Shown here: one piece after another, positions 22,343-60,925 of the stretch | Position numbering within the stretch: the first letter of the stretch is position 1 | How the letters are laid out: each line of letters starts with the position of its first letter | Source of the DNA: Plicaturopsis crispa FD-325 SS-3 | Taxonomy: Eukaryota > Basidiomycota > Agaricomycetes > Amylocorticiales > Amylocorticiaceae | Length of the DNA: 64,000 nt | Assembly (NCBI GenBank): GCA_000827205.1 | Contig: KN832578.1 | Coordinates: forward strand, 92,937-156,936 | Reading direction: 5' to 3' | Notes under the pieces: model-generated | Told to the model about the DNA's origin: nothing | Database searches by the model: none | The model's input: only the letters and a program-made list of their open reading frames with translations | Position numbers and translations under genes: made by a program

Positions 22343-25226
22343 TCACTTCCGTTTCAGAGGTCGAAGTGTCATTCCGCCTGCACGTCGCTCTCGCAGGGAA
22401 GCGCCGTCTCCGTCTCCAGCACCCGGTCTAGGTCCATGCACCACATTGCTTCCACTGGGCTCGGCATTGCCAACGCGTTTTTCCGCTGTCGCTTTCGACG
22501 TCCCTGGCGTCTTGCTGTCATCTGCCTGTGCGCTAGGGACGTCATCTCGATCCTCTGACTTCCTCTTTCCACCCACTGGCCGTGCCGACTCGGCCTTCTT
22601 CCCTTTGCCCACCGTCACTCCTGTATCAGCGGGGGTGCCTGCGTGTGGCGCACGCTTCATCGTTTTGGCGTCGAGTATCCGCCTCAGCAGGACAGGCTCT
22701 TTCTTATATTGTACCTCATCCCCGTCGATCCAAGACCGCTCGAAATCGATGATAACCGGGTTGCCTGCATCGTCGATCATGAGGTTCGCCGACCGCAAGT
22801 CCTCGTGAGAAACGCCAGCGGCATGTATCGATTTCAAAATGGCCATGAATCCGTCCCTAAAATAAGAATCAGTGGAATTCTGCATGCGCGGGGGCAGGAG
22901 ACATACCGTTGCTCTGGCGTAATCTTACCACCACGATCACGGAGCGACAAACCGGCATGGCTCATGATGACGCACGAGGGCCCCCCTTCGTCCGCATCGT
23001 GCCATTCCCCGAGGATCTTCGGGACTCCCTCGACGCCCTTGGACGACAGCCGCTTGTAGACCTCCATCTCGTGTATTAGTGCTTTCTGCTGCCTCGGAGT
23101 GAATGCGAGTTTCGCAGCGATCTTCAGTTCCGTGGTCTTCCTGTGCGATGATTCGACCCGTACGACGCCGCCGTGAACGACGCCAACAGCCCCCTCGCCG
23201 AGTTCTGACGTTAAGACCAGCAGTATACGATCGTCTTTTGAGAACCTTGTGACAGGCGTTGTGGGAGGCGGACTGGAAGTATCAACGGCAGAGTTGAGAC
23301 GTATGCCGCGAAAGAATATGCCCGGATTTACGGTGTCGTAGAGGTCGTACTTGAAGTGCATCAAAAGCACGGAGCGAGCAGAGGACGCAATCTCCTCCAT
23401 CATTTCCTTCAGAAATGAATCAGCCTTCAGGACGAGAGGACATAGCATGATTGGGATTACGTTCTCAGTCAGCTCGGTTTTCTCCTTTGCGACTGCTTTT
23501 CGCTTGCCTCGTTTCCTGCCTGAACGTCCCCGTCTATTTGTCGGGGGTGGCGTCGTGCGCGACTTTTTCTTGGCGGATTCATCCGAAGCATCTGTCTGCG
23601 CATCGGACTCGTCGATATCATCTACACCGGCTGGTGGCTCGGGGGCGTCATCGACGGCAGAATCCAGCTGGTTTCGGCGGATCGCATCGTCTATGGCCAA
23701 TAAGTATACACCCAGGGCGGTTTTCCCATACTTGGGATCCTCCATGCAGGGCAAGTGTAGGATGTCAGACACATAGAGAGTCTGCGATTCGCGGTGGCGA
23801 ACACATATAAATTCCAGATTTCCGGAGTGTAATATGACCAAGGTCGAGTTGTCCCGTATACTTTGTATCCAGGCCTATGAAAGCCTTTCAGTACGATCTT
23901 TGAATAAGCGAAGGAGCATCCTACCTCCATAAGCAGAGTATCTGGCGCTAGATCAAGACTCCCTGCCTCTGATTCACCGGGAAACCGCTGCGTCGCGGAG
24001 TCGGGCCAGGCAGAGTAACTATATCCCGGGGGTTTCCATCCGCCTGTTCCATTTGCCCTTGCCTCCCGCCGTTTCCGCGATGCCTCCTCTTGCTCAGCGA
24101 TGAACTCCTGGTGAATCTCGTCCAAACTTTGGAATTTTTCGAGCGATGAGCCACCCCTGACAAAGGCCTCGTCGAGGATCTGGGAATGGGACTTGGCGAC
24201 CGGTGGAGACGGGGGACGGACAGAAGGGGGCAGAGGAGTCGTAGCGCCAGATGGTGTGGCATCGGTAAGAGAGTCAGTAGCAAACATAAGAGTGTCTGCG
24301 GAATCATGTCCTGATCGAAATTGATTCTGGTTCAGAGGCTTCATACAGGGATCACCCCTGCATCGTTTCCATTGAAATGCGCCGTTGTAGACCATGGTCA
24401 TAAGACGCGGCATAACATCGTCTACGCCGATCGACACCTTCAGAATCTGCCAGGTCGCCAGGGTACGATATCTGCGGTCTATTTCGCGCAGATGCTTGAA
24501 ATTTTCCTCGTCAATGTAATCCCATACGGTGGCCTTGGGCTCGCCATCCGGCCCGCGTCTAGTAAGACCATCACGCAAAGGCTCGACGCCGAATGTCCCA
24601 TTTACGATAGCATGGCATCCTTCTTGGGGGTGGTCTGACCACCGCAGGACACTCAGCCATATCTCTGGATGAAACGTCAAGGCGGAGGCTATGGGCAAAG
24701 AGAAGCGGGGTATGGACCTGTAGAGATATTGCGCGACGTCTATCTCGTTCCTCATTTCGCGTCTGTCGGATTCGATGAGGTGACCCCGCGTGTCCTCGCG
24801 AACGTAGATGCCACGCCGATAGCCAGCGGGCGGTAACGTGATACCACGCTCGCGCAACGAGTCCATTCTGATGTCGACCACCCGCGCGAGCTGCTTGTGA
24901 AGTTGTGGGACATGGACCACGCGTTTGAGAGTAAGAGCAGGCGCGAGGTGCATTCCATAGAAGCTGAGATCGCGATTGCCTCTGCCAGGACTGTTGTCCT
25001 TACGCTTTGCAGCGATCATGAGGTTTTCCGGGTTCCACTCGAACACCGTATTGAGATCATCGTATATGTCCCCAGGAGATGCTGGGGGCGGCACCGGCGG
25101 TCGTGGGCGTTTATGTGGAACGAGAACGGAATGAGAACTCCACGCAACAGAGATGGCAGAATCCGAGTCGTCGTACGAGCTTAGCCGCGACGAGTACGAC
25201 GAACGCGACTCCTCTAAGTCAGACAT
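22343..25226 (-). CDS. Kinase-like protein, paralogue 1
   Basis: Exons on the minus strand start at the ATG at 25226 (MSDLEESRSS). The long N-terminal region has a domain shared by all four paralogues in the window: DIYDDLNTVFEWNPENL, DLSFYGMHLAP, LKRVVHVPQLHK and ATWQILKVSIGVD. A linking block reads LEFICVRHRESQTLYVSDIL. The C-terminal kinase fold has a Gly loop (LGEGAVGVVHGG), a VAIK-type lysine (KIAAKLAF), a helix-C Glu (ALIHEMEVY), a catalytic loop HEDLRSANLM and IDFERS in place of DFG. The tail is Lys/Arg-rich and ends RPLKRK, a possible nuclear signal. The catalytic Asp residues are present, so it may be active. I do not recognise it as the FunK1 family, whose loop is HRDIS. Substrate unknown. 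Confidence 0.8.
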
Positions 25227-25531: not shown

Positions 25532-28345
25532 TTATACACACACTCCATCGACACATCTACTCTCCCCGAGAGATTCTAGTAATCGCGCGAATTCCTCACG
25601 TTCATCCACCATCTCCTGCTCAGAGGCATCGCAACAGGCCTTGGCGAATCCGACGACAGCGACATTCCCCTTCTCGTCGAGCAAAAGATTTTCAGGGCTG
25701 AGATTCTTGTGAACAACACCGGTGGCATGAATTGAAGCCAGGATTTCCGTAAATTTCGTCCTGGCGAGGGGGCATAAGTATCGTCGTTCGTTCAATGCTA
25801 TAGATAATGTATGATACTCACCGCTGGTCTGGAGATAATTCCGTCTCGCAATCCGTGACAGACTCGCCTGCATCATGCAGTAATAGACATGAAGGACCTG
25901 TATCGTCTCGATCGTGCCATTCTCCCAGGAGAGTCGGTACACCCTCTACGCCGTGCAGCGCCAGATGCCTATAGACAGACGACTCATTGAGTAAAGCAGT
26001 CTGTTCATCCTTCGTGAAAGCAAGCTTCGTGACGACGTCAAGACACGACTCTTTCTCGCCGTCCTCGACTACTAGCTCTGACCCGTGTACCATGCCAGCG
26101 GATCCTCGGCCTAGCTCAGACTCAAGGACTAAGAGCAGGCGCTCGTCTTTGGCAAAGGCAGTGACAGGCGAAGAGGGGGGAGTCAAGATTTCGTCCGTGA
26201 TGTCGTTTACTCGTGCACCACGATGAAAAATGGCAGCTTTGGTTGAGTCGAATACGTCGTAATGCAGATGCACCAGAAGTGCGATGCGCGATGGTGACAA
26301 AGTCTGTTCGATCATCCACTGGAGACTTGGATGAGCGGAATAGGTGGCTTGATACTGTGAGAACACACCTGTCTATCCGCATCGTTGGCATCGTCTTGAC
26401 GGGGCTCACCTCCTTCACCAAGGTCATCCTTGGCGCCTTTTCTTTGACGTCCCCTACGCTTCGTGGATGGTCCACCTTTCTTCTTTGGTGCGGGTCGCCG
26501 AGGTTTCTTCCGGTCAGGTCCACCGTTGTCGTCGTCATCATCCGGATCGTTTCCGTCTCCTTTAGGATCTCCAGGATGCAAGTCGAATGGATTGGGATCG
26601 GGAACATAGTCGGGATCCACTCGGAGGCGGTCGAAATTGTCGGCAAGGGCCGCAAGAATAAGCCCGACCTGCACTTTTGTGTAGCCGGGTTCTCGTAATC
26701 GTGGGACGTGCAAAATGTCAGAGACGTAGAGAGTCTGCCTAGCACGATTTCGGACGCCTATGAACTCAAAGTTTCCTGCATGGATAACCAAGAAGGTAGT
26801 GTTGGAGTAGACCGACTGCGCCCAGGACTGAGGATTGTATTAGTGATTGCGTACTCTGAAGTGTGACACTAAACTGACCTGTTGCGCCAATTTCTCTTCT
26901 GTAAGCAAAGTCTTACGAGGTTGCTCTGCGCCTTCTGCGTTGACGACCGGCTTACTATCTTTGCCAGTTTCATTCCCTCCCAAATCAGATGATTCGCCCG
27001 CTGTCGCCTCGCCGGATGTAGTCCCGTTCGCCGCTTGGCCTGTCGTCTTCGGCTTGATCGTGCGTCGGGCACGAACAGGAATCTTGGCTCCTGGGTAGGG
27101 AACAGCAGGAGCCCATTCTCTCGGTGCAGAGACAGAGTCGGGCTCCTGAACATCGCACTCCTCGTCCGAACTGCTATCCTGCTCCTTTGCCTTGCCCTTT
27201 CCCTTCGACCTCGTCTCTTTCTCCCGCGCCCCCTCCTCTTTCTTGTCCCTTTTTGCCTCCGAATCTTCCCGTTCCCAGTCCTCTAGGCCAGCTGCCTTTA
27301 CGACAGAATCGACCAGGTCGACCTGCTGCAGCGAGGATCCGCCCCGAAGGAACGCGTCGTTTAACCTCTCCAACGGATGTCGTTCAGCATCGAAGGCGTC
27401 GGTTCGCGATCGCATGCCAGGTTCCAGGTTGGGGTCTACCCATGGGCTCTCGACAACGCGCCTCGTCTCCGGGGAGTCTGCGCCTTGGTTCTGGTGGACA
27501 ACGATATGGCCGTAGGGCGACTTCTTGCACTTGTCGGCGCCTTCGCAGAACGTCCACTGGAAGTCGCCGTCGAAAACCTTCAGCATAAAGCCCTGCATGA
27601 CGCCTTTATGAGCCACCGTCAAACTCTTCATCTCCCATGTGATCAAGTCCTTGTAACGCTCGTTGATTTTGCGCAGATCTTCGCGCAGGGCCTCTCCAAC
27701 ACCATCCCACGCGCGGATGAACCGTGTTGGGATGTTGACGGCGCCTTTCCGCTTGCGCTCGGGTAGCGTAAGCTGTATTGAGCCGTCCGCTGCGATGAAC
27801 TTGTTGTTCTGGGGAACGGGAGAGAAATAGAGGAGGGAACCCCATTTCTGGGGATGGAGAGCGAGTACTGATGCAATAGTAAGGGTGTAGTCGATCGTGA
27901 CATCCTTGAGATACTGGACGACCTCCGCCTCGTTCTTCATCGCCGTCGGCTTGTCGTCAATCCGTGATTCCTGCAGCTCCGACAGATCGACAACGTTGAG
28001 GGCATGGGCGGGAAGAAGCTGTATATTGTTGGCCTTCAGAAATTCGAGCCGTTCGTCCACGAAACGCGCGATCTTTTCATGTAGGTGTTTCACGTGGACG
28101 AAGTGCTTGAGAGTGTACTCGGGCCCCAGGTGTAGATCATACCACGACGGTTTGCGGCAGGCGTGCGCTCGGCTGCCACCCCTGCTTTCTTTCTCCAGCG
28201 TAAGCACTGGCGGGCTCCGGCTGAGGAACTCTTCTAGCTCTTTGTATACGTCGGGTTCGCGTCGAGACGAGGAGCTTTGTTGTTTCTGATCGATAGGAGG
28301 TGGGTCGGATGAAGTGGATGCACGGTTGAAAGCGGGGAAAATCAT
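25532..28345 (-). CDS. Kinase-like protein, paralogue 2 (probable pseudokinase)
   Basis: The start is the ATG at 28345 (MIFPAFNRAS); the codon six residues upstream is TTG. Domain order matches paralogue 1: DVYKELEEFL, LKHFVHVKHLHEK, LEFIGVRNRARQTLYVSDIL in altered form, a Gly loop LGRGSAGMVHGS, a lysine in VVTKLAFTKDEQ and the EGVPTLLGEWHD block. The catalytic loop reads HKNLSPENLL, so the catalytic Asp is replaced by Asn. The DFG position reads VGFAKA, so the metal-binding Asp is also missing. The long Lys/Arg-rich C-terminal tail seen in paralogues 1, 3 and 4 is absent; the protein ends shortly after the loop. The frame is open throughout, so it is a diverged protein under some constraint and not an obvious pseudogene. 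It probably binds or regulates and does not phosphorylate. Confidence 0.78.
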
Positions 28346-28944
28346 TTTGGTGGGCTGTGGCAATGGAAGGGTGCGGAGGCAAATTTGATAGGGAGTATGC
28401 CCTCTACGAATGGAGCGTGCATACTTGTATGCGCGGAATACAATGTCGACATGGACCCACTGCCCAAAGCAGTCACAATAAGAGTTCCGTCTTCAGACGA
28501 TACGAACAAGATGGACCCACAAGGATAAATACGAGCCCACAAGTCGTCATGTCATCATTGCAGCATCCTTGTCAGCAAATCCAAGCCGTCGTCAGGCTAG
28601 ACAATTGAGGCAGGACCAAGCACAAAGACCTGGCAACGGCTAGCTCAGCGAAGGTACACGGGACGCCCAACTAGGCATCACAGTGCTGTGGTGGTAATTA
28701 AACCGCAGGATGGCGGACAGTGAGCAGGAAGTTGGAACAAATTGGACTCAACGCACCTGATAGAAAATGGGAATGGCCGAGCTCTAAAAGCGCCGCAGCC
28801 GACCGACTCGTAAAATTCATGTTTCATTCCACGATTAATGGAATGGATGCGTAACGAAAGGTGAAACCGGTGAGAAATAGAGTGCAAGCGTAAACTGCAT
28901 AGGGTTCGCCCGTAGCCGTACCCGCCATGTTGTGATCCAATAAG
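28346..28944. other. Intergenic between kinase-like paralogues 2 and 3
   Basis: This is the 5' flank of paralogue 2 and distal 3' flank of paralogue 3. From about 28820 to 28900 it shows patchy similarity to 32220-32290 on the far side of paralogue 3 (for example GTGCAAGC and nearby CATTCCA words), in the same order and orientation. A small palindrome, CATTCCA with TGGAATG, lies near 28824-28845. No exon is seen. Confidence 0.45.
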
Positions 28945-29038: not shown

Positions 29039-32003
29039 TCACTTCCGTTTCAGAGGTCGAAGTGTCATTCCGCCTGCACGTCGCTCACACAGGGAAGCAC
29101 CGTCTCCGTCTGCAGCAGTGGCACCAGGACTATGGGGAGGAACCTCTCGAACAGCGTCCGCGACGGGTCCATTAATTTTCGTTTTCGATGTGTGTTCTGC
29201 GGTTTTTGCATCGCTATCATTCACCCGTGCATCGTGCTCGTCATCACGGTCCCCCGACTTTCTCTTTCCTCTCACCGGCCTGTGCACATCGGCCGTCCTT
29301 TCCGCGGTCTCTGCACCAGGAGAAGGATCCGCAGGTGGAGCATGTTTCATAGTTTTCGCGTCGAGGATCCGCAGGAGTAGCAAAAACTCTTTTCTCCGTG
29401 CCATTCGATCGGTGTTGAAGCGGGAACGCTCAAAATCTATGATCATAGGGCGACCTGACCCGTCAACCATGAGGTTCGCGGCGCGCAAATCGTCGTGGGA
29501 GATGCCTGCGGCGTGAAGTGATTTCAGTATAGCGATGAAGCCATTCCTGGCTTCGACATTAGCTTTTTTTTTCGAAATACGCGAGCGTAGCGGTCGTACC
29601 GTTGGTCTGGCGTGATTTTCGCTCTACGGTCTCTGAGCGACAGACCAGCATAAGTCATCAAGAGGCACGACGGGCCGTCTTCTTCTGAATCGTGCCAGTC
29701 GCCCAAGATAATCGGTACACCCTCGACACCTTGAGCGGCCATGTGCTTGTAGACCGAAATCTCGTGCAGTAGTGCTTTTTGCTGCCGTGGAGTGAAAGAC
29801 AGCTTCGCTGCCACCTTGAGGGACGAGCTTTTCTTGCGGGATGACTCGACCGTAAGGATACCGCCGTGTACGATGCCAACAGCCCCGCCTCCAAGCTCAG
29901 ATGTCAGAACCAGTATCAAACGCTCGTTGGTCGGGAATCTCGTGAGCGGCGGTGTTGTGGACGGGCTGGTGAGACCAGGAGCGGTATTGATGCGAGCGCC
30001 GCGTCTGAATATACCGGGGTTGACGGTATGGTAGATATCGTATTGCAGGTGCATGAGAAGAACAGAGCGCGAGGGCGACGTGACCTGTGCTATCAACCAC
30101 TAGTGACAATTGAGTAAGGCGGAGGAATATAATGCACATAGGACCTACCTCTTCGCTGGGTGGGGGCTTCTCAGGTGATTTACCCGACGTGGCCGACTTG
30201 ACGTTGCGACTGCCGCCGACCGGCCTTGCACGTCTGGGGGGATTTCGGCGAGCTTTCTTCTTGGCAGACCCATCCGATTCGTGGCCATCGTCGGACGTCG
30301 ATACAGCGGGAGGCGTGCTCGGACGAACATTCTCCTTATCGGCAGCCGAATCGAGCGTATTTCGACGGATGGCGTCGTCGAGAGCAGTGAGATATACGCC
30401 GAGGACTGTCCTCCCGTACATGGGGTCCTTCATGCATGGCAAATGCAAGATGTCCGATATGTAGAGCGTTTGCGACTCGCGATGTCGCACACATATGAAC
30501 TCTAGGTTCCCCGTATGGAGGATGATCAGGGTCGAATTGTCGCGTATGCTCTGAGTCCAGGTCTATGCGAACTGTTAGTATTTGTACAGCCTAAACACAG
30601 CGTCATTGAAAGTATGTCACCTTCATGAGTAGCTTGTCCTCCGTGAGTGCGAGAGTGCCAGACTCCGACTCGGCAGGCCAGAAAGTATGGGTAGAGTCAG
30701 GCCAAGCGGCATAGCTGTAGTCGTCATCCGAAAGCTCTTCACCTCTTTCCCTTGCCGCAGCTCGATTTTGCGAAGCTTCGAGGGCATTTCGAATGTACAT
30801 CTGATGCGCATCGTCCAATTCCTTGAATTTGTCGAAGGAAGAGCCACCTCTCCGGAAAGCATCGTCGAGAATCTCGGTCGAATTCCTGGTGGATGATTCA
30901 TCTGGGGTTGAGGATGGGTTGTCCGAAAGCGGAGGTAAAGGTTGCGGCGAGCTATCCAGCGGAGACGTGATGAGGGATACAATCTCCGGCGAGTCCTTGC
31001 TAAGGACGAATTTTGATTCGGACGTCTGCTTCGGAGGAAGACAAGGATCACCACGACACCGTCTCCACCGAAACGTGCCCTTATGGACCATAGACATGAG
31101 ACGTGGAAGGACAGCGTCAACACCAACAGACACCTTCATTATCTGCCACGTTGCCAAGCGAGGGTACCTGCGGCCAATCTCGCGAAGGTGCTTGAAATTC
31201 ACATCATCGACGTAGTCCCAGATGGTGGCCTCGGGCTCTCCATCGGGCCCTTTTCGAGTGAGACCGTCACGCAATGGCATGACCTCGAAAGTTCCATCGA
31301 CGATAGGATAGCAGCCATCGTGCGGTTCGTCAGACCAACGCAGAATGCTTGACCATATATCAGGGTGGAAAGCCAGGGTCGAGGCGATGGGCAAGCAATA
31401 GCAGGCGGTCGACCTATAATAGAATTGGGCCACATCGATCTCGTTCCTCATTTCGTACCTACCCGCTCTGATAGAGTATTCTCGCCTACCCTTGCGGGTG
31501 TAGACGCCTTCCTCAGAGTCGGGAGACGTTAATGAGACACCCTGCTCGCGCAAGGCCGCCATCTTTTCGTCGAGCGCATGGGCCATCTTCTTGTGAAGAT
31601 CGCGTACGTGAACGACACGTTTGAGAGTAAGGTGGGGGGCAATATGCTTGGCGTAAAAGCATAAGTCGCGAGTACCCCTGCCAGGGCTATTGTCAACACG
31701 CTTCTCTGCAATATCGAGGTTCTGAGGGTTCCAATTGAACACCGTTTCGAGTTCCTCATAGATATCTGCGGGGGGCGACGGAGGGCGAACTCGAGGGCGA
31801 GGGCGTTTCGTAGGCACCAGCACGGATCGAGCACTGGCGATAGAAGGCGAGCGAGTGGACACGCCAGAGTCGCGACGGGATGAAGACGTCTCGCTCGAGC
31901 TAGACGGCGAGTTCGAGGATGCAGAACCAGCGGTCGACTCGGAAGAGCCGGAACCGATGCTGGACTGGGCCTGCGAGTTGGATCCGGACCTGGATTTAGA
32001 CAT
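29039..32003 (-). CDS. Kinase-like protein, paralogue 3
   Basis: Starts at the ATG at 32003 with a Ser-rich N-terminus, then DIYEELETVFNWNPQNL, DLCFYAKHIAP, LKRVVHVRDLHKK, ATWQIMKVSVGVD, the LEFICVRHRESQTLYISDIL block, a Gly loop LGGGAVGIVHGG, a lysine in KVAAKLSFTPRQQ and a catalytic loop HDDLRAANLMV with IDFERS. It is closest to paralogue 1: the two share the last residues GGMTLRPLKRK and nearly the same DNA over the stop codon and about 25 bp of 3' flank. The catalytic Asp residues are kept. The whole gene lies between two 66-bp direct repeats, so it may have arrived or moved as a unit. Function and substrate unknown. Confidence 0.8.
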
Positions 32004-32364
32004 AGCTCGGAAGCCGGTCGATGCCCGCGCAAGTGCGAGGCGAGTGGCAAAATTCCTTGTCTCTGACCCAGTGAGTCTTGACTTCCAAGTCTAAATACCA
32101 AGCTATATTTGTGGCACTTACGCGATTTTGTGGCGCGGTGAGCTATTTATCTCGCCAGGCCTAGTAATGTATTCACACGCACCTGCAGAGATAGTGAAAC
32201 CTTGCACGACGGAACGTGTAAATGGACTGATCCATTCCATTGAATCCATCGTGATAAAAGAGAACATTAAGTGCAAGCAAGAGCTGCATTTTTCGTGAGC
32301 GTATTCCACCGCAGCGGGCAGTGACACCACACCATAACGTGATGCAATGCAATAAGTTAGTCTA
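32004..32364. other. 5' flank of kinase-like paralogue 3
   Basis: Promoter side of paralogue 3. Part of it (about 32220-32290) resembles 28820-28900 beyond the other end of the gene, extending the direct-repeat relation in weaker form. No exon is seen. Confidence 0.45.
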
Positions 32365-32430: not shown

Positions 32431-35027
32431 ACGCCAAACGCTTCACGCGCTCCATCTCCTTCACGAATTTAGAGCGTGCCCGAATCTGCGGGCCATACCG
32501 CAGCAGTACGAAAGCTACATTTGTATCCGTACAATCAGCATTCCATCGCAGCATTCGCGCAAGGTGCACATGACGACACTCACGTATGACAGCAAGCAGC
32601 AGCGCGATCATGCCAAAAAGGAACGACGCCCAGTCATATCCGAGGCGGACGTCTGTCGGCCCTATTCGTCAGGACAGGCCCAAAAGCTGATCTGCGCGAA
32701 CACGGGACGTACACATCTGGGCGGTGAAGAGCGGGAAGACGAAGCCCATAAAGTTCCGCGCGAACGACTGCGCCGCTATCGCGGACGAGGCGTACGCGAG
32801 GTACGAATCTGCGAGATAGTTGAACACCGCGCACTGTGCGCCGGGAAGGGCTTAGTGTGACGCTACGAAGGCAGGGGATGAGTGGGGGACGCACGTATAT
32901 CCAGAATATGCCCGTCATGAGCACGGTCACGCCGATTAGCGGCGCGATCCAGTGCACCCGGCCTTCCGTCCACGCGAATATGAAGCTGCGGATATGCGTG
33001 TGACGTGAGCTAGCGGCTATGATGGAAGGAAGGGAGAGGGCGACGCACCAGCCAGCCGGGACAAGAAGCCCGCCGAGCGCAGCGCCTGTACATGGTATTG
33101 CATCAGTGGGTTTCTTATGGGCAAACGTAGAGCACGACCATGTGCGAACCGTATAGTCGAGCCTCGGGGCCTTTTTTAGACACTGTTAGAAAGAAAGCTC
33201 CTCGTCAGCATTCGCTACAAATTCATGCAATTGTATGTCGCAGACGCACCGTTCTTGCGATACAGCGCCTCCTGTATGGGATTAGCGAGCGCCGCAATTA
33301 AACCTCCAAGCCTGTCAACCAGGCATTTAGGGTGAGCACCGCATCGCTGTCAAGCAAAGAGAGACTCACGCCAGTGAGAAAAACGCAAGGCCTATTTGGC
33401 CTTGGTTTGCGCCATACAGCTTCATTACGAGCGGTATGGCTTCTAGTAGACCGTACTGTGCGCGCCCATGAGATTGGCAGGTAGACGATGCTTCGAGAAT
33501 ACGTACCATAACCCTAAAAGAAAGCGAGTTAGTATTATTTCATACGAGCCCGTGAATTGACGTACCCCCATACGAAACTGACCCATAAAGAAAAGAAGAA
33601 ACTATGTCGGATTGAACACGGTCAGCATAACGCACCAGCGCAGATGAGAGCGGACGCACACGACAGGCTCGGTGAACAGGAAGTACAGCGGGCGCGTGAG
33701 GGACACCTTAATCAGCACCGTCAAGCTTGCGCGCTCCTCATCTGCCTTGCATTTCCACCGGTCGTTCCCGCTCTCCTTCCGCATCGCCGCAGCGCGGTGG
33801 GACAGGAGTATCGATCCTAGCGCATCACATCAGCGCCCGGGTAGGATGGCGAGCTACGTATACGCATACGCACCCCGGGTCTCGCGGAGAAAGATTAAGA
33901 AGACGACGAATGTGACGGCGCCCATGAGGGCCTGGATGTACTGGATCCACCGCCAGCCGATGTGCATGGGTATGTAGCCCGTTACTGCTGGACCGAGCCC
34001 TGTGCCGATGAAAGCAGCGGCAGAGAAAATCGACTGTGGTCAGGGTGTAAGTAAGGGGCGACGGGGGTGTGGATGGGGACGGACCATTGGTAAACCGCGT
34101 TCATGCGTCACCCATATGTCTGCGTGAAAGATTTAAGAACTCGGGGAAGTGTGCAGGGCCATCGGTACGCACCTGCGAGGGTACCGCCGACCATCGTGCT
34201 TCCGCTGCTCCCTGCGCATCCACTTAAGAACCGACCCAAGGCCACCGCAGTGATATTTGGCGCCGCGCCAATCATTGCCGTGAAGGCTAAGCGAGAGTTA
34301 AGAAACACGGAGCAAGACGAAAAACGCAGCGGACATACCACTGAAAAGAACGATGGTGGATATGTACATTGGATTGCGGCCATATCTAAGCCTCCAATTA
34401 GTAAACAAAGCAAAGACATACGCACAAGTGAAACATACGCTTCTGAGAATGGCGCGAGCGCAAGGGGTGCTATTCCGAACCCAAGTGGATATCTAAATAT
34501 TGGTCAGAGACGCCGCAAAGTAAGTAAGGCATCCAACATACACAGCTAAAGTTATCGCGGCGACCTCGGAGGAGACATGTAGGTCATTGCGCATGTCGGA
34601 TATGCCCACAGAAAAGCTGGACGCGCAGAAGGCGACCAGGAAGCAAAACCAAGATCCGCATAACGAGATGATCCATTTCTTTTTCCTGGGAAAGCAAAGC
34701 AGCGTGTCAGGAGCAAAAGTGATAGACGTTGTGATAGACTCACCTCGGCCAATTGAAGGGGTTCTTGGGATCGCCTTCTTCGAACTCGATGTACACATCG
34801 TCGTCGGAGTCGCTCTCCAGTTTCTCTGTTCCGGACTTCTCGTCTACTATCGTTGCCTCCAGGTCGGCCCCTGCTGGGTGGTGGTGGTGGTGCCCGCCAG
34901 TCTCGGCGACGTACTGGTGAGCAGTCGCATCCCAGTGCAGCCCGACGTCGGCTTCGCGAGACTCGCCCGAATCGGCGGAGTGTACGCGTTCCAAGGCTGG
35001 AGATACCGCGTTCGCGTTGAGGGACAT
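32429..35027 (-). CDS. MFS transporter, polyamine/drug-proton antiporter type
   Basis: A many-exon gene starting at the ATG at 35027. The N-terminal tail is hydrophilic and acidic, with a His run (GGHHHHHPAG), and ends PKNPFNWPRKKKW, the usual entry to the first membrane helix in this family. Helices follow with SLCGSWFCFLVAFCASSFSVG and, after splicing, ITLAVYPLGFGIAPLALAPFSE. A block GRFLSGCAGSSGSTMVGGTLA comes next, and the end reads AVIPFVLLRYGPQIRARSKF. That tail is typical of the DHA1 group that includes yeast Tpo-type polyamine and drug exporters, probably in the plasma membrane. I did not resolve every intron; most are about 50-60 bp. The true substrate is not given by sequence. Confidence 0.85.
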
Positions 35028-35891: not shown

Positions 35892-37443
35892 TCAGGCCAC
35901 GTCTGCGAGGCTCCGTCCATCACGGCTGCGACTACCGCCCCTCTCCGCAGAGTCTCCGTGCTTGCGAGCAAGAAGAGCACGAGCAACAGCGCGGCCGCGT
36001 TCGGCGCTTTCACCTCGTTCACCAGAGTCTCCGTGCCTGCGACGGGCCAGGCGCTCAGCACTGCGGCTGCCACCCCTCTCCGCGGAGTCACCATGCTTGC
36101 GCGAGAGAAGGGCACGAGCGCGGGCGCGCCCGCGTTCGGCACTCTCGCCTCGCCCGCCAGAGTCGCCGTGCCTGCGACGGGTGAGGGTGAGGCTGTCGCG
36201 GCTGCGGCTGCGGCCATCCCCTCTCTCGCCAGAGTCTCCGTGGCGGCGGCGAGTGAGGCGAGTAGCGCTGCGGTCGCGACTGCCGCCTCGTTCTCCGGAA
36301 TCTCCATGACGGCGACGAGTGAGAGCTTCAGAACTGCGTCCACGACTGCCGGAGTCTCCGTGGCGGCGCCGAGCGAGGCCCACAGCCCTGCGGTCACGGC
36401 TGTCGCCTCGTTCTCCTGAGTCTCCATGCCTGCGGCGGGTCAGGGCCTCAGAACTGCGGCCGCGACTGCCAGAATCTCCGTGGCGGCGACGCGTGAGGCG
36501 CGCAGCACTGCGGTCACGACTGCCGCCTCGTTCACCAGAATCTCCATGCCTGCGGCGGGTCAGGACCTCAGAGCTACGTCCACGGCTGCCAGAATCTCCG
36601 TGGCGGCGACGAGTGAGGCGCGCAGCACTGCGGTCGCGACTGCCGCCTCGTTCTCCTGAATCTCCATGACGGCGACGAGTGAGGGCCTCGGAGCTACGCC
36701 CACGGCTACCAGAATCTCCGTGGCGGCGCCGAGTAAGGCGCGCGGCACTGCGGTCACGACTGCCGCCGCGTTCTCCGGAATCTCCATGACGGCGACGAGT
36801 GAGGGCCTCGGAGCTACGCCCACGGCTGCCAGAATCTCCGTGGCGGCGACGCGTGAGGCGCGCCGCGCTGCGGTCGCGACTGCCGCCTCGTTCTCCGGAA
36901 TCTCCATGCCTGCGACGAGTGAGCACCTCTGAGCTGCGCCCACGACTGCCAGAATCCCCATGCCTGCGACGAGTGAGTACCTCTGAGCTTCGACCGCGGC
37001 TGCCAGAGTCCCCGTGTCTACGACGGGTGAGGACCTCTGAGCTACGCCCGCGACTACCAGAGTCTCCGTGACGGCGACGAGTGAGAGCTTCTGAGCTACG
37101 GCCCCGACTGCCCGAGTCCCCGTGTCTGCGACGGGTGAGGACCTCTGAGCTACGCCCGCGACTGCCAGAATCTCCGTGCCTGCGGCGAGTCAGGACCTCG
37201 GAGCTGCGCCCGCGACTACCAGAGTCCCCGTGCTTGCGGTTGACCAGAGGAGTAGTGACCAAGCTCCTGCCACGGCTTGCAATGTCCACGAGGGCAACAC
37301 CGCTAGCAGGAGTAATCTGCATATGTAAAATATCAGGACAATCAGGAGTTTCTCAAATTCATGCATATACTTACGGGACGAGCGGTGGCAGCCGACAGAA
37401 CAGCGGCGATCACAAAGAACACGAAGTTTTGCTTGAACTGCAT
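35892..37443 (-). CDS. Secreted repeat protein, candidate Kex2-processed peptide precursor
   Basis: Two exons: 37443-37375 (23 codons) and 37316-35892. Exon 1 encodes a clean signal peptide, MQFKQNFVFFVIAAVLSAA, with TA-RP near the cleavage site. After a short pro-region come 22 units that each start HGDSG (or HGDSA twice) and are preceded by RRR or RK. Eleven are an 18-residue type, HGDSGSRGRSSEALTRRR with A or V at one place. Six are a 22-residue type starting HGDSGERGG and ending LTRRR or a variant. The rest are diverged, and the last ends SLADVA. I see no cysteine. This layout is that of fungal KEP precursors, which Kex2 cuts in the Golgi to release many peptides. The peptide function is unknown. 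An uncleaved, strongly basic wall or matrix protein is the main alternative. Confidence 0.75.
35895..37232 (-). repeat. Coding minisatellite, 54-bp and 66-bp units
   Basis: The 22 HGDS units correspond to DNA repeats of mainly 54 and 66 bp. In the middle they alternate as a 120-bp higher-order unit. Units at the 5' end of the gene are nearly uniform and those at the 3' end are most diverged. Confidence 0.88.
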
Positions 37444-38405
37444 AGCTGAAAAGACGCGGTTTTAGAAACGGTTGTTGCGGAGGTGCTGGTTGTTGCTTTT
37501 GGCGAAGATGTGCGGCGAGTACTCGATTGTCGTCGGAGCGAAAGACGTCGAGGAGCCCCGTCATTTATACGCGCGAAGTGAGAACATGCACCACCGTTTG
37601 ACACTGGCGTGCTTGGCGCGCGTCCACACCACGGCGCACTTGGCGTGTCGATTTCTGCACCACATCGTGGACGTTTGGCGAGAGGAAACGCACCGCAAAT
37701 ACGACCGTCTTTGTATTGAGGAAGGTGGGAGGACGGTGGGACGCGTTGTTGGGTAAGCACGCTTGGGCGTGGGGGAGTACCAGAGCTACGGAGCTGGGCG
37801 CTTGCTAAAGCGCAGCATAAAATGCCGAACAGAGTGCTCGTCATGCGAAGCTATCCTGTACGGCTACCGCGTTGTCAGTGGCATTCCCGGAGATTTACAC
37901 ACGCACAGTATTGAAGGGGGTCGGGGCATAATCGAGTTGTATTTTGGACTGCTTGGGCAGGTAAATGCGGCGTGCCAAGAAGGCAGCATGACATAGGTTC
38001 TACGCTTTATGTTTTGCATCGCGCAATTGAGCGCTATATCCTTGCAAAGTGAGGGAGCCGTTAGATGTTTAAAGGCGCCCATTCTCAGGCACTTGTTTAT
38101 AGAACGCGCTGGGATGCACGTGAGCCTTGAACAGTGAGAAGTTCCTGCTGCGGGAGGATTGTAGCAATGGCTAAGCTAAGGAACACATACAAGGAAGAAT
38201 AGCGTGCTCACCATTGCGGTGTAGTTGCGTGTAATCACCCAGCCAGACGAAGCCTTGCGGCGCCTTGAAAATTAGCGATATACAAAGAAAAGGCTTGGAT
38301 GCAACCTGAATGCAGCTTTGATGGCTTGTGCTTCTTATTTGCGGAACCGAATGGGAGTATCGTGTTTCATTCTTCGAGCAGAGGGCAGAACGAAATCGAC
38401 AGTCA
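37444..38405. other. Intergenic: repeat-protein promoter and RIX7 3' flank
   Basis: About 960 bp. Both neighbours are on the minus strand, so this holds the promoter of the repeat-peptide gene and the 3' end of RIX7. No coding block with family motifs is seen. Confidence 0.45.
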
Positions 38406-40984
<2,579 letters not shown>

Positions 40985-41748
40985 AGATTTGTTCAGAGCA
41001 TTGGAGCCCTATCTAGGTAACCGTAAGTAAGTTGTTCGCTATCAAACATAAGGCAAATTCCGCACAGATATTTCCATCCCAAAAAACTTGCTTGGCTAAT
41101 GCCTAATGTCGTGCCCAAAAGTAAACGAGAGTAAAAATTGAGCGGGCGTCGATGAGGGTGTCGAGCAAAAGTTTTTGATAGGGGTCAAATAACCATTCTC
41201 AGACCGCCATGAGGCTCGCAATCGACGAGGCGACCGGCGACAGCAACTTGAAGTTGGAACTTGACTTGCTCTTGACCACGACCTTTCGACGAGATATGCT
41301 CTGGCTTAGACTGCATATTCTTCCTACCTCTTTGGCAATCAAAATCGTCTGGAAAGAGGTCCACCGGTGTTCCTAGGTCTCATACTCGTTTGACCATTAC
41401 AGTGCATACAATATCTTCGAAGCACTCCATTCGTACACTCACACTCGAGGTTGATCGTAAGACGTCTACATGAAACCTGCACACCGATGACTGGCTCTCT
41501 GGATGGTGCGCTATCTCATTTCGACCAGAGTAATATGAGCAGCGTGTAAACAGCGAGCGTAATGCTGTCGTAACACATATGCTCGCTGGCCGACACTGTA
41601 CGCGCGAGTCTGCCCCGTGGTCCCGACCGACAACGCACCATCGTTGAGTCTCTCTTCACGTAAATTATACGGTCATGGCTCCCTCGTGTGCACCGTCCTA
41701 TATAATTGACCTGGTGAGAGCTTATTTTTCTCCTATATTTCTTTGACA
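40985..41748. other. Unresolved RIX7 5' region and F-box promoter
   Basis: Lies between the clear parts of RIX7 (-) and the F-box gene (+). It probably contains the missing RIX7 5' exons. One minus-strand open stretch at about 41185-41315 (MQSKPEHISSKGRG onward) could be one, but it has no recognised similarity. The rest should be divergent promoter. Confidence 0.35.
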
Positions 41749-43596
41749 ATGGCTCCCGCAGGCGCCCACCTGTCAATCGCACAACTGGTTGAGGCGCTTC
41801 TCTGGAAACTTGAACCAGACAATGTCGAGACTGAATGGTGAGATACTCTCTTGTCTTAGTTGGAGCTTGCTATTGAATCCAACCGTGTCAGCGTGCCCTA
41901 TCAGTCCGCATCGGTTTGCAGCCCGCGTTCTTCTGGCTTCTCCCGGGACTAACGTATAATCTCTCTAGGACGTCGACAAAGTCGTGCACGCGCTATCGTC
42001 CAACCTTCGCTCCCTCCACAACTCCGTAGCTCACATAAACCGCCTACCGTTCGAAATTCTCGCCACCATCTTCCGCTACTCCTCTCGCTACATTCCCGAC
42101 TTCCGCCCCGACGCTGGGTTTGGCCTCTATGATCACTGTCCCGCATTCGCTGTGTGCCGCCAGTGGCGGCATGTAGCTATTCTGTTCCCAGACCTCTGGT
42201 CGGATATTTACATGACCTCCGTCCGTGGATGGGGATCCATAAGGACGCATCTCGAGTACTCCCGTAGCGCCCTGCTCAGAGTTTTCTACACGCAGAGCAT
42301 GGACCCGTATATGGCCTGCCGGCTTGCGAAATCGGTGGCCTCGCAGTACCATCGCATTCGGGAACTGCACATCGTCGCGGGACAGACGGCTTGTGTCGGC
42401 GATTATCTATGGGCTGCACTTCGTGATGCCGGTCCTGCTCAGAAACTGGCATCGCTCACGGTTGCACTGTCAGAGCCGACGACAGCTACTTTGCCCAAGC
42501 TGTTCTCGGGGAAGACACCTTGTCTGCGCAAGCTGGCACTACACCGCTTCACTCGATGGCCTGGCAACACGTTCAACAATCTCACCCATATATCCCTTCA
42601 CAACCAGCCAGCATCTGAACGATGCACACTTGCACAATTCCTAGACTTCATCGGCTCCTCCCCCCTCCTCGAAGAGCTCTATCTGATCCAGGCCGGCCCT
42701 AATTTTGACGACTCACACCTTCTCCGGGCATATCCAACCACCTCCGTATCACTCACGCATCTCCGTGTCCTGGAAATGGGCTTCAGAGAAGACAGTCCTC
42801 CTGCGAGCGTCATAAGCACCTTCCTCGACTGCTTCAAGATGCCGGCGGATGTCACAATGCGGATCTGGGGAGTAGATTTGTTGATCGGCCCGGAGGCCCT
42901 GCCCGCCCTGTTCGCAGACCACTCGTTGCAATGCGCCATCATCCGGCGAGTGACCAGTATCGTCGTCGGCGAAGCCGCCGCACACAGCCGCACGAGACTC
43001 GATAGTCGAATGCAGGTCGTCGCTATCGAGAACGGCGCCACGCTCAGAATACGCGGGAATTTCGAGCCGTGGCTCATCGCGTCGTTCGTCCGGACGAAAT
43101 GCACCGCGGCGCTCGTCGAGTCCTTCACGTTCGCCCCCTACGACTGCTGGGGCGACTTCTTCTACGAAGGGTGCTACATGCTCCTCGAGCATCTCACGTC
43201 CCTCGTCAGCCTCACCGTCTCGTGGAGCGGTTCGGCGTGCCTCCGGATGCTTGCAGGCGGTAGCTTGTGCCCGAAACTGAAAGAGCTGTGCATCGATGCG
43301 CCCGTTGGGGGCTCGCAAGCCTTCTCCCTGTACGCATGGACTTTGCAGTTGTCGAAAGACCGAGCGCGCCGCGGGCAAGCGATTGACAAGCTCTCCATTT
43401 GGGACAGTCTTGAGAACGCGGCTGAGCTCAGGTACGCGTGCGTTGACTACGTAGGCCAGTCGGTTGTTCTGTCTACAGCTTCGAGGCCCTCATGCGGCGG
43501 GGTATGGCCAACAGCGGCTTCCAGCTGGCCGCGCGGTTTTATCGGATAAGACTAGAAGGATATTTGGTACAGATACACGCGCAAGGTTCTACATAG
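41749..43596 (+). CDS. F-box protein
   Basis: The start is the ATG at 41749 (MAPAGAHLSIAQLVEALLW). A short middle exon gives VPYQSAS, then comes the main exon DVDKVVHALSSNLRSLHN. An F-box follows: INRLPFEILATIFRYSSRY, then CRQWRHVAILFPDLWSDIY. The rest has leucine-rich, beta-strand-like repeats such as LTHLRVLEMG and LTSLVSLTVSW, as in basidiomycete F-box proteins that recruit targets to SCF ubiquitin ligases. A last GT-AG intron near 43431-43478 would give an end at 43596; without splicing the frame closes at 43549. Targets are unknown. Basidiomycetes have very large F-box sets, and this one is not close to the pair at 56-62 kb. Confidence 0.78.
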
Positions 43597-43690
43597 ACTA
43601 TGAACATAATGCCATTTGCTGCAATACACATACATGCTCGCAGATAGTGATCCTGGCACCGCAGGCTCGCCGACACGGCCCTCAAGCCGC

Positions 43691-44048
43691 CTAACTGGTC
43701 CTGGCGAATTTGGCGTAAGGAAACCGCTTCTTGATCTCTTCCAGGAGAAGCCACCCGGGGGTGAGGTACGGGATATGGTTGCTCGTCCTGCCACCTGCGT
43801 TCTGTCCGGAATGAAGCCAGCCCACGATGCGCGCTTTCCCGTCCTCGGCGTGCCAAACCAAGGCGCCCGAGTCTCCTTCGGCAGAGAAGACGTCGTCGGC
43901 ACTGGAGTTGTATAGAGCCAGCTCGACGAACGACATGAGGTCGGTGCTGTTGCCAACTTTATCGACAGCGAGGCAGGGTGGGCGTTGCTGTCGAATATGT
44001 TGACGAGCTTTCCCGAAGGGACTCGCCTTCGTGCAGTAAACCAGCAGT
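43691..44048 (-). pseudogene. Trypsin-like serine peptidase, 3' fragment
   Basis: One open exon reads LLVYCTKASPFGKARQ, CLAVDKVGN, SAEGDSGALVWHAEDGK, IVGWLHSGQN and YLTPGWLLLEEIKKRFPYA. The GDSG box is the active-site serine motif of the PA-clan (chymotrypsin-fold) family, and the rest matches a type common in Agaricomycetes with proteins several hundred residues long. I cannot find exons carrying the rest of the fold, including the catalytic His and Asp, between here and 44949. Either the gene is 5'-truncated or the missing exons have diverged beyond recognition. It is tail-to-tail with the F-box gene. Confidence 0.5.
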
Positions 44049-44949
44049 CTTCAGTGTCGCCTTGGTGAACAGTGAAGCTACAAACAAGCGGCGTAGCACA
44101 GGCGACCAAATGGGAAACGATGGGCCTACTTAATGTATCCATAGTGAAGTTGTAGTCGCAGTAGTTCTGGGGGCGTTAGGGGCTGAGCTGCGCGCTCCCC
44201 GTCTGAGCATTGGGCGATTGGAGCTCTTTGGAAGGGGCAAGGCCTCTGGGCTCCTTTCCACTGCGTGGCCATCTTTCCAAGCCAGGACGGCACGAGCTAC
44301 AGAACGACCGCGCTCGACTCTTTCACTAGAGTCTCCGTGCGTTCACCCGCTACAGACTGATACAGACGCGCGGTGCTCCCCCGTGTATCATCCTGCGACG
44401 ACGAAGCGACGTGTCTGGACGTGTCGACTGTCAAGGATCGCAGAATTATCAACTCCTGGAATTCTTTCAGCACACTTGGAAGCAGTAGGACCATCGTCGT
44501 TACCGGTTAGCCTTTCATCCTGCTGTTCGATGCGCGCAGCGCGGGAGAAATGGTCACGTCGCTCCCACAAGGATACACGGTGTCCATTGAGTGCGTGCAG
44601 GGCATCAGATTACAGGCTACTTCCGGCCATGCAGTTGTTCTCAAGAAGTATACGGAAAAACGAGAACGTCGGTGGCAGAACCTGAGCAGAGCCGCAGCGA
44701 GAGAGAAACAAAAGAGAAATCATTCGCGGCGCGTCGCCGCTCGGCGCTCGCGCGAATTTCGCGGCTGAATTTCTTGGGCACAACTTTCACTGGACTGGCA
44801 AGCACCGATACTATTTGCGACTCACAGCTGCCTTGAACCATCGCAGAACTGAAGGCAGGAGCTATCAAATCGTCTCGCGTTGTTCGAGTTATCTAATATC
44901 GCCTTGCTACTAGCAGGTACTAGCCCTCCGTAATGGCGTAGGGACGGCC
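44049..44949. other. Region between peptidase fragment and Zn2Cys6 gene
   Basis: About 900 bp. It should contain the promoter of the gene at 44950. A reading frame around 44050-44160 (YCDYNFTMDTL) could be degraded peptidase sequence. I see no other supported exon. Confidence 0.4.
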
Positions 44950-57227: not shown

Positions 57228-57927
57228 TGGTTTGAGGATGGGGGAGGGTGGGGGATGGGCCCTGGTGGCTCTGCTCATGGACTGATGCAGTACTTACGAT
57301 ATGGGTCTTTATAATTTAAGCGGTTCTAATTATCTCTCTGTAGCTCGCTCATGGTCAATGCTAGAGATTCAACATTTGTCTCGGAGGTGCCCCGCAGATT
57401 TAGGACAGTATATGTGCCATATTAGGATTATCAATCGTCTGGTCTGGCTGCCTCTCACTATGGATTCTCCGTCGGGGCGTGCAGGGTGGTTCGGAGGCCA
57501 TGACCATGTTCATCGTTGACCCCGTTCGCTGCCTTTGCTGTTTGTGCTGGTGTGTAGGTGTGTGGATTGTCTGGGTACCGGATGCTGGCTGACCGACCGC
57601 GCAGTTCGTCTGACGCAAAGCCGCGAGCAGAAACTCACCGCCCGGCCCTTGGTATAATCCGTATATCTCTGCATCGTGCTATCACTCCACCAAAGTTTGG
57701 CTCACCATGCCCGAACAGGGTCGTTCGTCATCTCCTAACGGGGGACCACCGTGTGGCCTATCCGCCACAATAGAGGTGAGAGCTCAACGATATACCTCCG
57801 CATTTTTTGTACTCAAGCTCTGTTGTGTTCGTGAGGAGGCTCTTTTATTGTGGCGACCCCGCCACGCTCTTTCGACAGCTTAAATTCCCGTCGTTTAACA
57901 CGGTCAGTCTACTTATAGATACCCACC
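57228..57927. other. Intergenic: F-box 3' flank and kinase-like 4 promoter
   Basis: 700 bp between two plus-strand genes. It starts with a short G-rich tract and then becomes ordinary sequence. No exon, tRNA or repeat is seen. Confidence 0.45.
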
Positions 57928-60925
57928 ATGCCCAGCACACAGCGCGAATCCGAAACCGAGCAGGACACTCGGTCCGGGTCGACTTCATCTGCAAGCTCCT
58001 TCGTCCCTGTCACGCTCGACGATATACTGGCTCGGATCGACAGGGACTTGGATCGCCACGAGATCGCATCCTCGCGCTCCTCGTCGCGCGAATCCGTTCT
58101 CCTGCCCCACCGACGCCCGTGCCCACCCTTCAGTCCCACCCTGCCTCCCAAGGACATCTACGAAGACCTCGACAAGTTCTGCAACTGGAACCCCGACGCT
58201 CTCTGGCCCGAGGTGCATCGTCCAGCCAACGCCTGCCAAAAAGGGACCAGCGATCCCAGCTTCTACGCCAAGCATCTCGCACCCCATGGCCACCTCAAAC
58301 GCGTCGTGCACGTCCCGGCCCTGCACAAACGCGTCTCCCGCGTCGTCGACTCCACGCTGGGCTCACTGCGCGCGCGCGGCATAGACCTGCCCCCACCCGG
58401 CTCCGGCATGTACGTACGCGCGGAGTGGCGAAACGCGCACGTCGAAGAGGAGGCATACGCGCCCAAGCCGAACGAGCGCTACGTGTCCCAATTCTACGGC
58501 ACGGCGATCGCGCGGGACGCCCTGCCGGTGGCGTCGACGCTGAGCTTCCACCCGGCGCACTGGTCGAGCGTACTGGAGTGGTTCGAGGACGACCTGAATA
58601 CGTGCTATCCCGTCGTGGACGCTGGGATGCGCGTGCAGGATCTGCGCGACGGCCTGCGGAGGCGGGAGTGGCGTGGCAGTTGTGCGCCCGTGGCGACGGT
58701 GTGGGACCGTCTCGATGACGCGAGTTTCAGGCTTTTGCGCGAGGTGCATCGCGGGTACCCTACACTGGCGACGTGGCAGGTTATGAACGTCTCTGTGGGC
58801 GTGGAGGCTGTTCTGCCGCGGCTCATGTCCACGGTGCATAACTCCACTTTCCAGTGGAGACGGTGCATGTCCGAGCCGTGCATGGAAAGGACACATGCTT
58901 CCGTGGTGGGATACAATGCGGGGAAGGACTCGTCGGAGACCCTTGCGCTCATCTTGGACTCGCCGCTATTACCTGACGCCTCGAATTCCAACCCCGCGCC
59001 GCCAGAATCTGTCCCACCTGCGCGGAGTGCGAATACCTTTCCCTCTCAGTCCTCGACTGAAATTCTTGATGCAGCGTTCCGGAGGGGAGGCTCGTCTTTT
59101 GAAAAGTTCAAGGAGATAGACGATGCATATCAAGAATATCTCTGCGAACAAGCGGAGCGACACCGGGTGCGAGCTGAAAAAAGGGCGAGGAAGAACGAGG
59201 AATCTGGTTGTAATTATTGGGATATTTCGGATGCGCCCCCTAGCGATTCCCAGCCGGACGCCCTGGAGCTCACAGAGGATAAACTGCTCACACAGGTAGT
59301 GTGCATCTCATTTCCATATCCTGCATAACATTTCTTTTTGACGCCAAACATATTTTAAGGCATGGATTCGCAGTATACGCGACAATTCCACCTTCATTGT
59401 CCTCGCCACGGGCAACTTGGAGTTCATCTGCGTGCGCCACCGCGAGTCGCAAACGCTGTATGTCTCTGATATCCTGCACGTGCCTTACATGGAAGACCCG
59501 ATGTACGGAAAGACGTTGCTGGGAGTCTACCTCGCAGTGGTGCAGGACGCGATTCGGAGACATGAGCTTGAGTCGGCGGCGGACCGTGAGGGGAATCATC
59601 CGGGTGGTGTGCCCACGGCTGCACCTCAATCCACGGACGAGGCGGAGGAATCTGAAGGCCCCCCGAGGAAGAGAGCCCATACTACTCCTCCGAGTCCCCA
59701 GAGGAGAAGTGGATCTAAAGTTCGAAGTCCACGCAATGGTGAGATGACAGAGGATATCGTGTCTGAGCCCACAGAAGAGGTAGAGAAACCGTTATTCGCG
59801 TGTTCGCATTATTCCACAGGCTGACGCATTCTTCACCATCTTGCAGTTAGTGAGACAGGCCAGAGCAACCTCTCGTTCCGTGCTTTTGATGCATTTTCAT
59901 CACGATATCTACGACACCGTCAATCCGGCCGTCTTCCATCGCGGCGCTCGTATCAATGCGCCCAGAGACCTACTTGGTTCACCTCCCACAACGCCGATCA
60001 CAAAGTTCCCCAAAGATGATCGCCTGCTGCTCATCCTGACGTCCGAGCTCGGATCTGGAGCCGTAGGAGACGTCCACGGTGGCGTCCTCAAGATCGAATC
60101 ATCCGACGGAACATCTTCGACGCTGAAGGTTGCTGCAAAACTCTCTTTTGCACCGAGACAGCAGAAAGCACTCCTTCACGAAATTTCCATCTACGAGCAC
60201 TTATCCTCGAGGGGCGTCGAGGGTATCCCCACAATCCTAGGCCACTGGCATGACGTAGATGAGTCCGGACCGTCATGCCTCTTGATGACACATGCAGGCG
60301 TGTCGCTCAGAGATCGTAGACGCAGGATCACCCACGAACAACGGTACGAGCATTTTTGTTCGTGTGAAAAGATAAAGACGTGACTGACTGGATTGATATT
60401 TACAGTGACGGTTTTATCTCGATTCTGAAGTCAATACACGCTGCCGGTGTCTCGCACGACGATCTGCGTGCGTCGAATCTCATGATCGACGAGTCCGGGC
60501 GGCCTTTGATCATCGACTTCGAGAGGTCGTACACTGAGAGGAGTTCGGCGATTCGAAGAGGAGAGATGGCCAAGCTCTACGATATCCTTGACGTTAAAAC
60601 GGAGGAACGCGGGCCGTCAGCACGCGCTGGAGGCTCGGAAGGGGCGAGTGCAGCCAGTGGGACTGCTGATATGAAGCCATCGGTGGCAGGAGAGGCGAAA
60701 GACGAGGACGGCGGCGGAGAGGAGGCGCAGGGGGACGAAGAGACGAGGAAGCCCCAGGGACAGTCATTCAAGAAGAAGGCAAAGGTCGCCGATACTGCCA
60801 AACCGAGTGGTGATGGCGATATACCAGTCCCTGATCCTGGTCCCGCCGTTGGAGACGGAGATGTCTCTTCCCTCCGAGAGCATCGCGCTGGCAGGATGAC
60901 ACTGCGCTCTTTAAAACGGAAGTGA
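57928..60925 (+). CDS. Kinase-like protein, paralogue 4
   Basis: Four exons join in frame from the ATG at 57928. The domain order equals that of the cluster at 22-32 kb: DIYEDLDKFCNWNPDAL, DPSFYAKHLAP, LKRVVHVPALHKR, ATWQVMNVSVGVE, LEFICVRHRESQTLYVSDIL, a Gly loop LGSGAVGDVHGG, a lysine in KVAAKLSFAPRQQ, the EGIPTILGHWHD block, a catalytic loop HDDLRASNLMI and IDFERS. The Gly/Glu/Lys-rich tail ends RMTLRSLKRK. The last intron sits at the same place as in the other copies, just after the HEQR or PDQR block. Catalytic Asp residues are present. It lies 25 kb away on the opposite strand from the other three, between two related F-box genes. Confidence 0.82.

Follow-up and report, generated by a model that had tools for sequence, protein, structure and literature searches.

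The window analysed here, a 64,000-nt stretch (C25:92937-156936) of a 33.2-Mb genome assembled in 49 contigs, holds on its minus strand a two-exon gene (37443..35892) that very probably encodes a KEX2-processed repeat protein (KEP) yielding linear peptides with an N-terminal histidine. The initial annotation had reached the same interpretation, which is borne out by three features of the predicted precursor, a signal-like sequence, tandem repeats and basic sites ahead of each repeat, and by the presence of a kexin in the genome. KEPs are an already known class, and the point of interest of this precursor is its invariant His-led head.

In-silico splicing from the ATG at 37443 to the TGA stop at 35894-35892 gives a protein of 497 aa, and we infer that the gene is transcribed and spliced according to the following layout:

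37564..37569, minus strand: putative TATAAA box, an exact match about 126 nt 5′ of the start codon
37375..37443, minus strand: exon 1 (69 nt), with the signal-like sequence (37443-37381 if cut between ATA and RP) and the first two leader residues
37317..37374, minus strand: predicted intron of 58 nt (GTAAGT..CAG), with CTGAT branch-like sites
35892..37316, minus strand: exon 2, with the remaining leader, the 22 HGDS units and the stop codon
37233..37316, minus strand: remaining leader, residues 24-51, whose NRK end is the first kexin-type site
36909..37232, minus strand: units 1-6, type A, 18 aa each, HGDSGSRGRSSE(V/A)LTRRR
36243..36908, minus strand: units 7-17, type B (22 aa) alternating with type A (18 aa), a 40-aa/120-nt dimer repeat
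35895..36242, minus strand: units 18-22, divergent C-terminal units of 20-25 aa, with RK in place of RRR ahead of units 20 and 22

The precursor N-terminus, MQFKQNFVFFVIAAVLSAATARP, reaches a peak Kyte-Doolittle mean of 2.92 in an 11-residue window, and several possible cuts conform to the -3/-1 rule, the one between ATA and RP being chosen. On these two criteria, the only ones applied, the N-terminus is signal-like, in agreement with the signal peptide of the initial annotation. A crude signal-peptide filter was passed by 5 of the 1931 ATGs in the window, and two of these five have an in-phase GTRNG donor, the HGDS gene, left unmasked in this control, being counted in both figures. The predicted intron had been placed at the same coordinates, 37317-37374, its length being 58 nt and not the 54 nt given; if it were retained, in-frame stops would follow exon 1.

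The repeat region (residues 52-497) stays open for 446 codons, with 3 to 23 stops in the other five frames, and consists of 22 head-to-tail units. Every unit begins with HGDS (HGDSG in 20, HGDSA in 2) and is preceded by a basic run, RRR in 19 cases and RK in three, the heads and basic runs being those first described. Both of the repeat features by which KEPs are recognised are thus seen, namely three or more repeats that are identical or nearly so (here 22) and kexin sites between them (ahead of 22/22 units). Type A comprises 11 units (1-6, 8, 10, 12, 14 and 16) and type B, which is HGDSGERGGSRDRSAARLT-like, six (7, 9, 11, 13, 15 and 17). Tandem Repeats Finder reports periods of 54, 120 and 135 nt, and the 120-nt higher-order repeat is the product of the B/A alternation. 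The region is built from only eleven kinds of residue, with Cys, Phe, Ile, Met, Asn, Pro, Gln, Trp and Tyr absent and arginine accounting for 125 of 446 positions; cysteine is lacking from the whole 497-aa precursor, as had been noticed before. The ten distinct cores are hydrophilic, with GRAVY values from -0.77 to -1.66, and units without their RRR/RK tails carry a net charge (R+K-D-E) of 0 to +2.

From this architecture a route of maturation can be proposed. The precursor would enter the ER by means of its signal sequence, and in the Golgi kexin would cut after RRR and RK, ahead of each HGDS head, whereupon a KEX1-like carboxypeptidase would trim the C-terminal basic residues. Cleavage, trimming and secretion would in this way give, per transcript, 22 small, linear, hydrophilic and near-neutral peptides with an exposed His-Gly-Asp-Ser N-terminus: 11 of 15 aa (HGDSGSRGRSSE(V/A)LT), six of 19 aa (HGDSGERGGSRDRSAARLT-like) and five divergent ones of 17-23 aa. 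The earlier expectation of some 20 basic peptides falling mostly into two kinds therefore stands as to the kinds, which cover 17 of the 22 units (11 and 6), and fails as to the charge, which after trimming is only 0 to +2.

Comparison of the units at the codon level bears on whether the peptide itself is kept. Among the 11 type A units, 64 of the 69 codons that differ from the consensus are synonymous and 5 non-synonymous (pS 0.595, pN 0.027, pN/pS 0.045), and variation touches all 18 third codon positions but only one first and one second position. In 2000 trials with random single-base changes, the synonymous share averaged 27% and never exceeded 48%, compared with the 93% observed for type A. 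In the six type B units, 20 of 26 codon changes are synonymous and 6 are not, five of the six amino-acid changes being borne by unit 15, without which the counts are 15 and 1. Changes among the units are mostly synonymous, so the peptide has been kept while the DNA drifted, and the units are not merely fresh copies of one another; there is, on the evidence of these codons, constraint between the units at the level of the protein. By itself such constraint is also expected of an uncut repeat protein, and does not distinguish a cleaved product from a whole one.

The placing of the basic pairs does speak to this question. Within the 22 cores there is one instance of adjacent basic residues, an RR in unit 15, compared with 10.3 expected from shuffles. 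With one representative of each of the seven classes there is none, compared with 4.5 expected, a value as low occurring in 79 of 20000 shuffles, although this figure is optimistic since the test overstates the independence of cores that share ancestry.

The alternative that survives best is that of a secreted wall or matrix repeat protein of the Ustilago Rsp3 or PIR type, which would stay whole, its arginine-rich repeats acting together and its RRR runs serving as basic linkers. PIR wall proteins are characterized by DGQ-type repeats and C-terminal cysteines, and the precursor has neither DGQ nor cysteine; nor does it have a GPI-type hydrophobic C-terminus or an N-glycosylation sequon. Secreted repeat effectors without predicted Kex2 processing do exist, one of which is reported to bind the hyphal surface (PMC5923269), and the constraint between units would fit a whole protein equally well; however, basic runs stand ahead of all 22 units and only once within a core, and we regard this alternative as improbable.

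A second alternative dispenses with the splicing, reading an arginine/serine-rich intracellular protein without signal sequence from the ATG at 37322. It can point to an open frame of 476 aa, but that ATG falls within the 3′ end of the predicted intron, exon 1 contributes an in-phase signal-like sequence, and the spacing of RRR and RK would be left unexplained; we regard it as less probable still than a secreted protein that stays whole.

The processing proposed for a KEP calls for enzymes that were sought across the genome. A kexin is encoded on contig C7 (locus L008), where S8 and P-domain Pfam matches lie in one frame, covering profile positions 33-209 of 288 for S8 (partial in the scanned frame) and 1-57 of 86 for the P-domain. 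An overlapping frame downstream, which gave no Pfam match, can be read by eye as containing a hydrophobic segment and a tail of acidic residues. This was the only P-domain match genome-wide in an exon-wise search that may miss some, while three kex2 genes are stated for C. cinerea and other agaricomycetes (PMC9769878), and our count is perhaps an underestimate. A DPPIV_N gene is located on C13; none of the 22 heads presents an XA/XP dipeptide after the kexin site. Exon matches to S10 carboxypeptidases number 32, among which no KEX1 orthologue was found: each of the three S10 pieces compared with PDB resembled either carboxypeptidase Y or lysosomal protective protein more closely than KEX1, and the trimming step is thus one we infer. 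Within the window, 5272-6635 on the minus strand carries fragments of a gene for a serine carboxypeptidase (S10), of which the tested fragment was nearest to lysosomal protective protein in PDB.

The first reading had found no indication of a cyclised RiPP, and the wider search agrees, as the UstYa matches found lie on C1, C10 and C4 and the repeats lack tyrosine and cysteine. Tyrosine is the usual crosslinked core residue of dikaritins, and the 446-residue repeat region contains none. A dikaritin-type precursor modified by UstYa oxidases can hence be set aside as barely credible: the architecture is shared with ustiloxin-type KEPs (PMC7329392) and UstYa genes are present in the genome, but all six UstYa exon matches lie on contigs other than C25, the contig of the precursor, the repeats lack Trp besides Tyr and Cys, cyclisation is accordingly not indicated, and a DUF3328 gene within 15 genes is reported for only 103 of 1680 basidiomycete KEPs (PMC7329392), so that KEPs usually stand alone.

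Relatives of the gene were sought in its own genome and beyond. A protein search of the genome (E <= 10) returned 10 matches, nine within the HGDS gene and one at a further place in the window:

44250..44340, minus strand: decayed relic of unit 21 and part of unit 22 (gene positions 1408-1507), a DNA match 6.8 kb from the gene

The DNA match has 67% identity over 100 columns, with 48.3 bits and E 3e-7 under +1/-1 scoring and E 0.002 under +2/-3. In controls, the best of 60 codon-shuffled queries scored 34.0 bits, and reversal of the gene gave 29.7 bits. At the protein level the match is weaker (59%, E 0.038 genome-wide; E 0.086 with the unit profile), an in-frame TGA stands directly before it, and its flanks show no likeness to the gene (best 19.7 bits). 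Taken together, these values suggest a decayed former second copy of the HGDS gene. The frame adjoining the relic (43555-44175, minus strand) gave no Pfam match; another frame of the same stretch contains, by eye, EGDSGALVWH, like a fragment of a trypsin-type protease.

One full copy of the gene was found in the genome, and a search with the leader yielded nothing beyond the two exons of the gene itself. A degenerate DNA pattern encoding RRRHGDS occurs at 19 places in the gene and once on C18, the backwards pattern occurring twice; the C18 place was considered as a paralogue and rejected, and since the 11 ATG/GTG/TTG frames of at least 60 aa at that locus all lack HGDS, the match was treated as chance. 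No relatives were found among 149 and 3 pattern matches in prokaryote and viral contigs, respectively, collections that are not expected to include fungi. Neither Pfam nor PDB gave the precursor an acceptable identity: the single Pfam match scored 10.4 bits where the cut-off is 25, the single PDB match had E 0.74, and both were rejected. The HGDSG head may bear some resemblance to that of secretin and exendin.

KEPs are numerous in fungi: one survey arrived at 7878, 2560 of them without a homologue, with 5.30 per basidiomycete strain (PMC7329392), and the highest repeat counts in another were 129 and 38 (PMC6339444), compared with 22 here. HGDSG and other strings containing HGDS were not found in the literature searched, and both HGD and GDSG are absent from the main texts of PMC6339444, PMC7329392 and PMC9769878; the HGDS peptide may already figure in the supplementary KEP lists of those papers. 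KEP type G-1, found in 49 genera, is described as high in tyrosine (PMC7329392), unlike the HGDS repeats, so the present precursor was not assigned to it.

The closest parallels are agaricomycete KEPs whose peptides have been detected, 497993 and 447393 of Coprinopsis cinerea, 2599 of Lentinula edodes and 1091723 of Pleurotus ostreatus (PMC9769878), which have in common with the HGDS precursor a signal sequence, repeated cores between dibasic sites and linear peptides, the last being here predicted. Linear, minimally modified KEP peptides are reported from four mushrooms (PMC9769878). Precursors from C. cinerea have also been expressed in Pichia pastoris. The peptides themselves (QIPAELPTKSINGNIEPY, QVPVDEPA, GPPAPSW, SGTGEASAADW and SGVAADW) are unlike those of HGDS type, and several of them start with pyroglutamate or follow STE13 dipeptides (PMC9769878), whereas the HGDS cores begin with His and have no XA/XP. 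Alpha-pheromone precursors of ascomycetes, and the alpha-like KEPs of basidiomycetes, likewise carry short repeated peptides between kexin sites, while the HGDS repeats have neither the STE13 XA/XP signature nor Trp. Dikaritin and ustiloxin precursors share the general KEP architecture, from which the HGDS gene departs in having no UstYa on its contig and no core Tyr. Ustilago Rep1, which the initial annotation gave as an example, is similar in being a secreted precursor cut into repeated peptides, and its products affect hyphal wall properties (PMC6339444); these are, to judge from cited titles, amphipathic and surface-active, and as the HGDS cores are hydrophilic over their whole GRAVY range, Rep1-type repellents seem a poor analogue.

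The functions of KEPs are described as largely unknown, and six kep knock-outs are reported to show no phenotype in axenic growth (PMC9769878). For the HGDS peptides we would suggest, tentatively and at somewhat less than even chance, an extracellular role in dealings with other cells, whether as signal or as factor of biotic interaction, in which the HGDS head would be recognised and the tail be variable. It is a good deal more speculative, and on balance doubtful, that they represent a family of extracellular peptides not described before, with a fixed His-Gly-Asp-Ser head and two alternating kinds of tail, in which the free amine and imidazole of the histidine might bind copper or zinc by chelation, or form an N-terminus that a receptor recognises; if this were true, two ligands would be made in fixed ratio from one transcript. 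The precursor combines many copies with a His-led head that never varies and a record in DNA of the peptide sequence that has been kept. The head-and-tail idea is testable, and the predicted peptides HGDSGSRGRSSEVLT, HGDSGSRGRSSEALT and HGDSGERGGSRDRSAARLT are exact targets for mass spectrometry.

The surroundings of the gene were surveyed by a Pfam scan of 25 window frames, picked by eye from 115 stop-to-stop frames of at least 150 aa and some shorter ones. Nine had a match and 16 had none, and no known peptide-modifying enzyme is among the nine. Three of the features lie as follows:

38409-41008: three AAA pieces (Pfam)
41969-43546: F-box-like frame (Pfam match below cut-off)
33857-34039: MFS_1 (Pfam)

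Other frames with a match are Suf, another AAA, PHD and ThiF, the last being ATG7 by comparison. Four further frames, at 22837-23874, 26315-26839 and 29900-30562 on the minus strand and 59342-59821 on the plus strand, appear by eye to be related and uncharacterised, with common stretches such as GNLEFI(C/G)VR, and nearby motifs resemble the catalytic loop of protein kinases (SHDDLRAANLM). Pfam gave no match in the frame at 22837-23874 nor in the neighbouring frames at 26843-28492, 29527-30099, 30606-32090 and 57919-59325. In the genome at large, a search for 5.8S rRNA gave no match. The class II peroxidase extension domain gave eleven exon matches, from which the host is probably an agaricomycete of the white-rot type.
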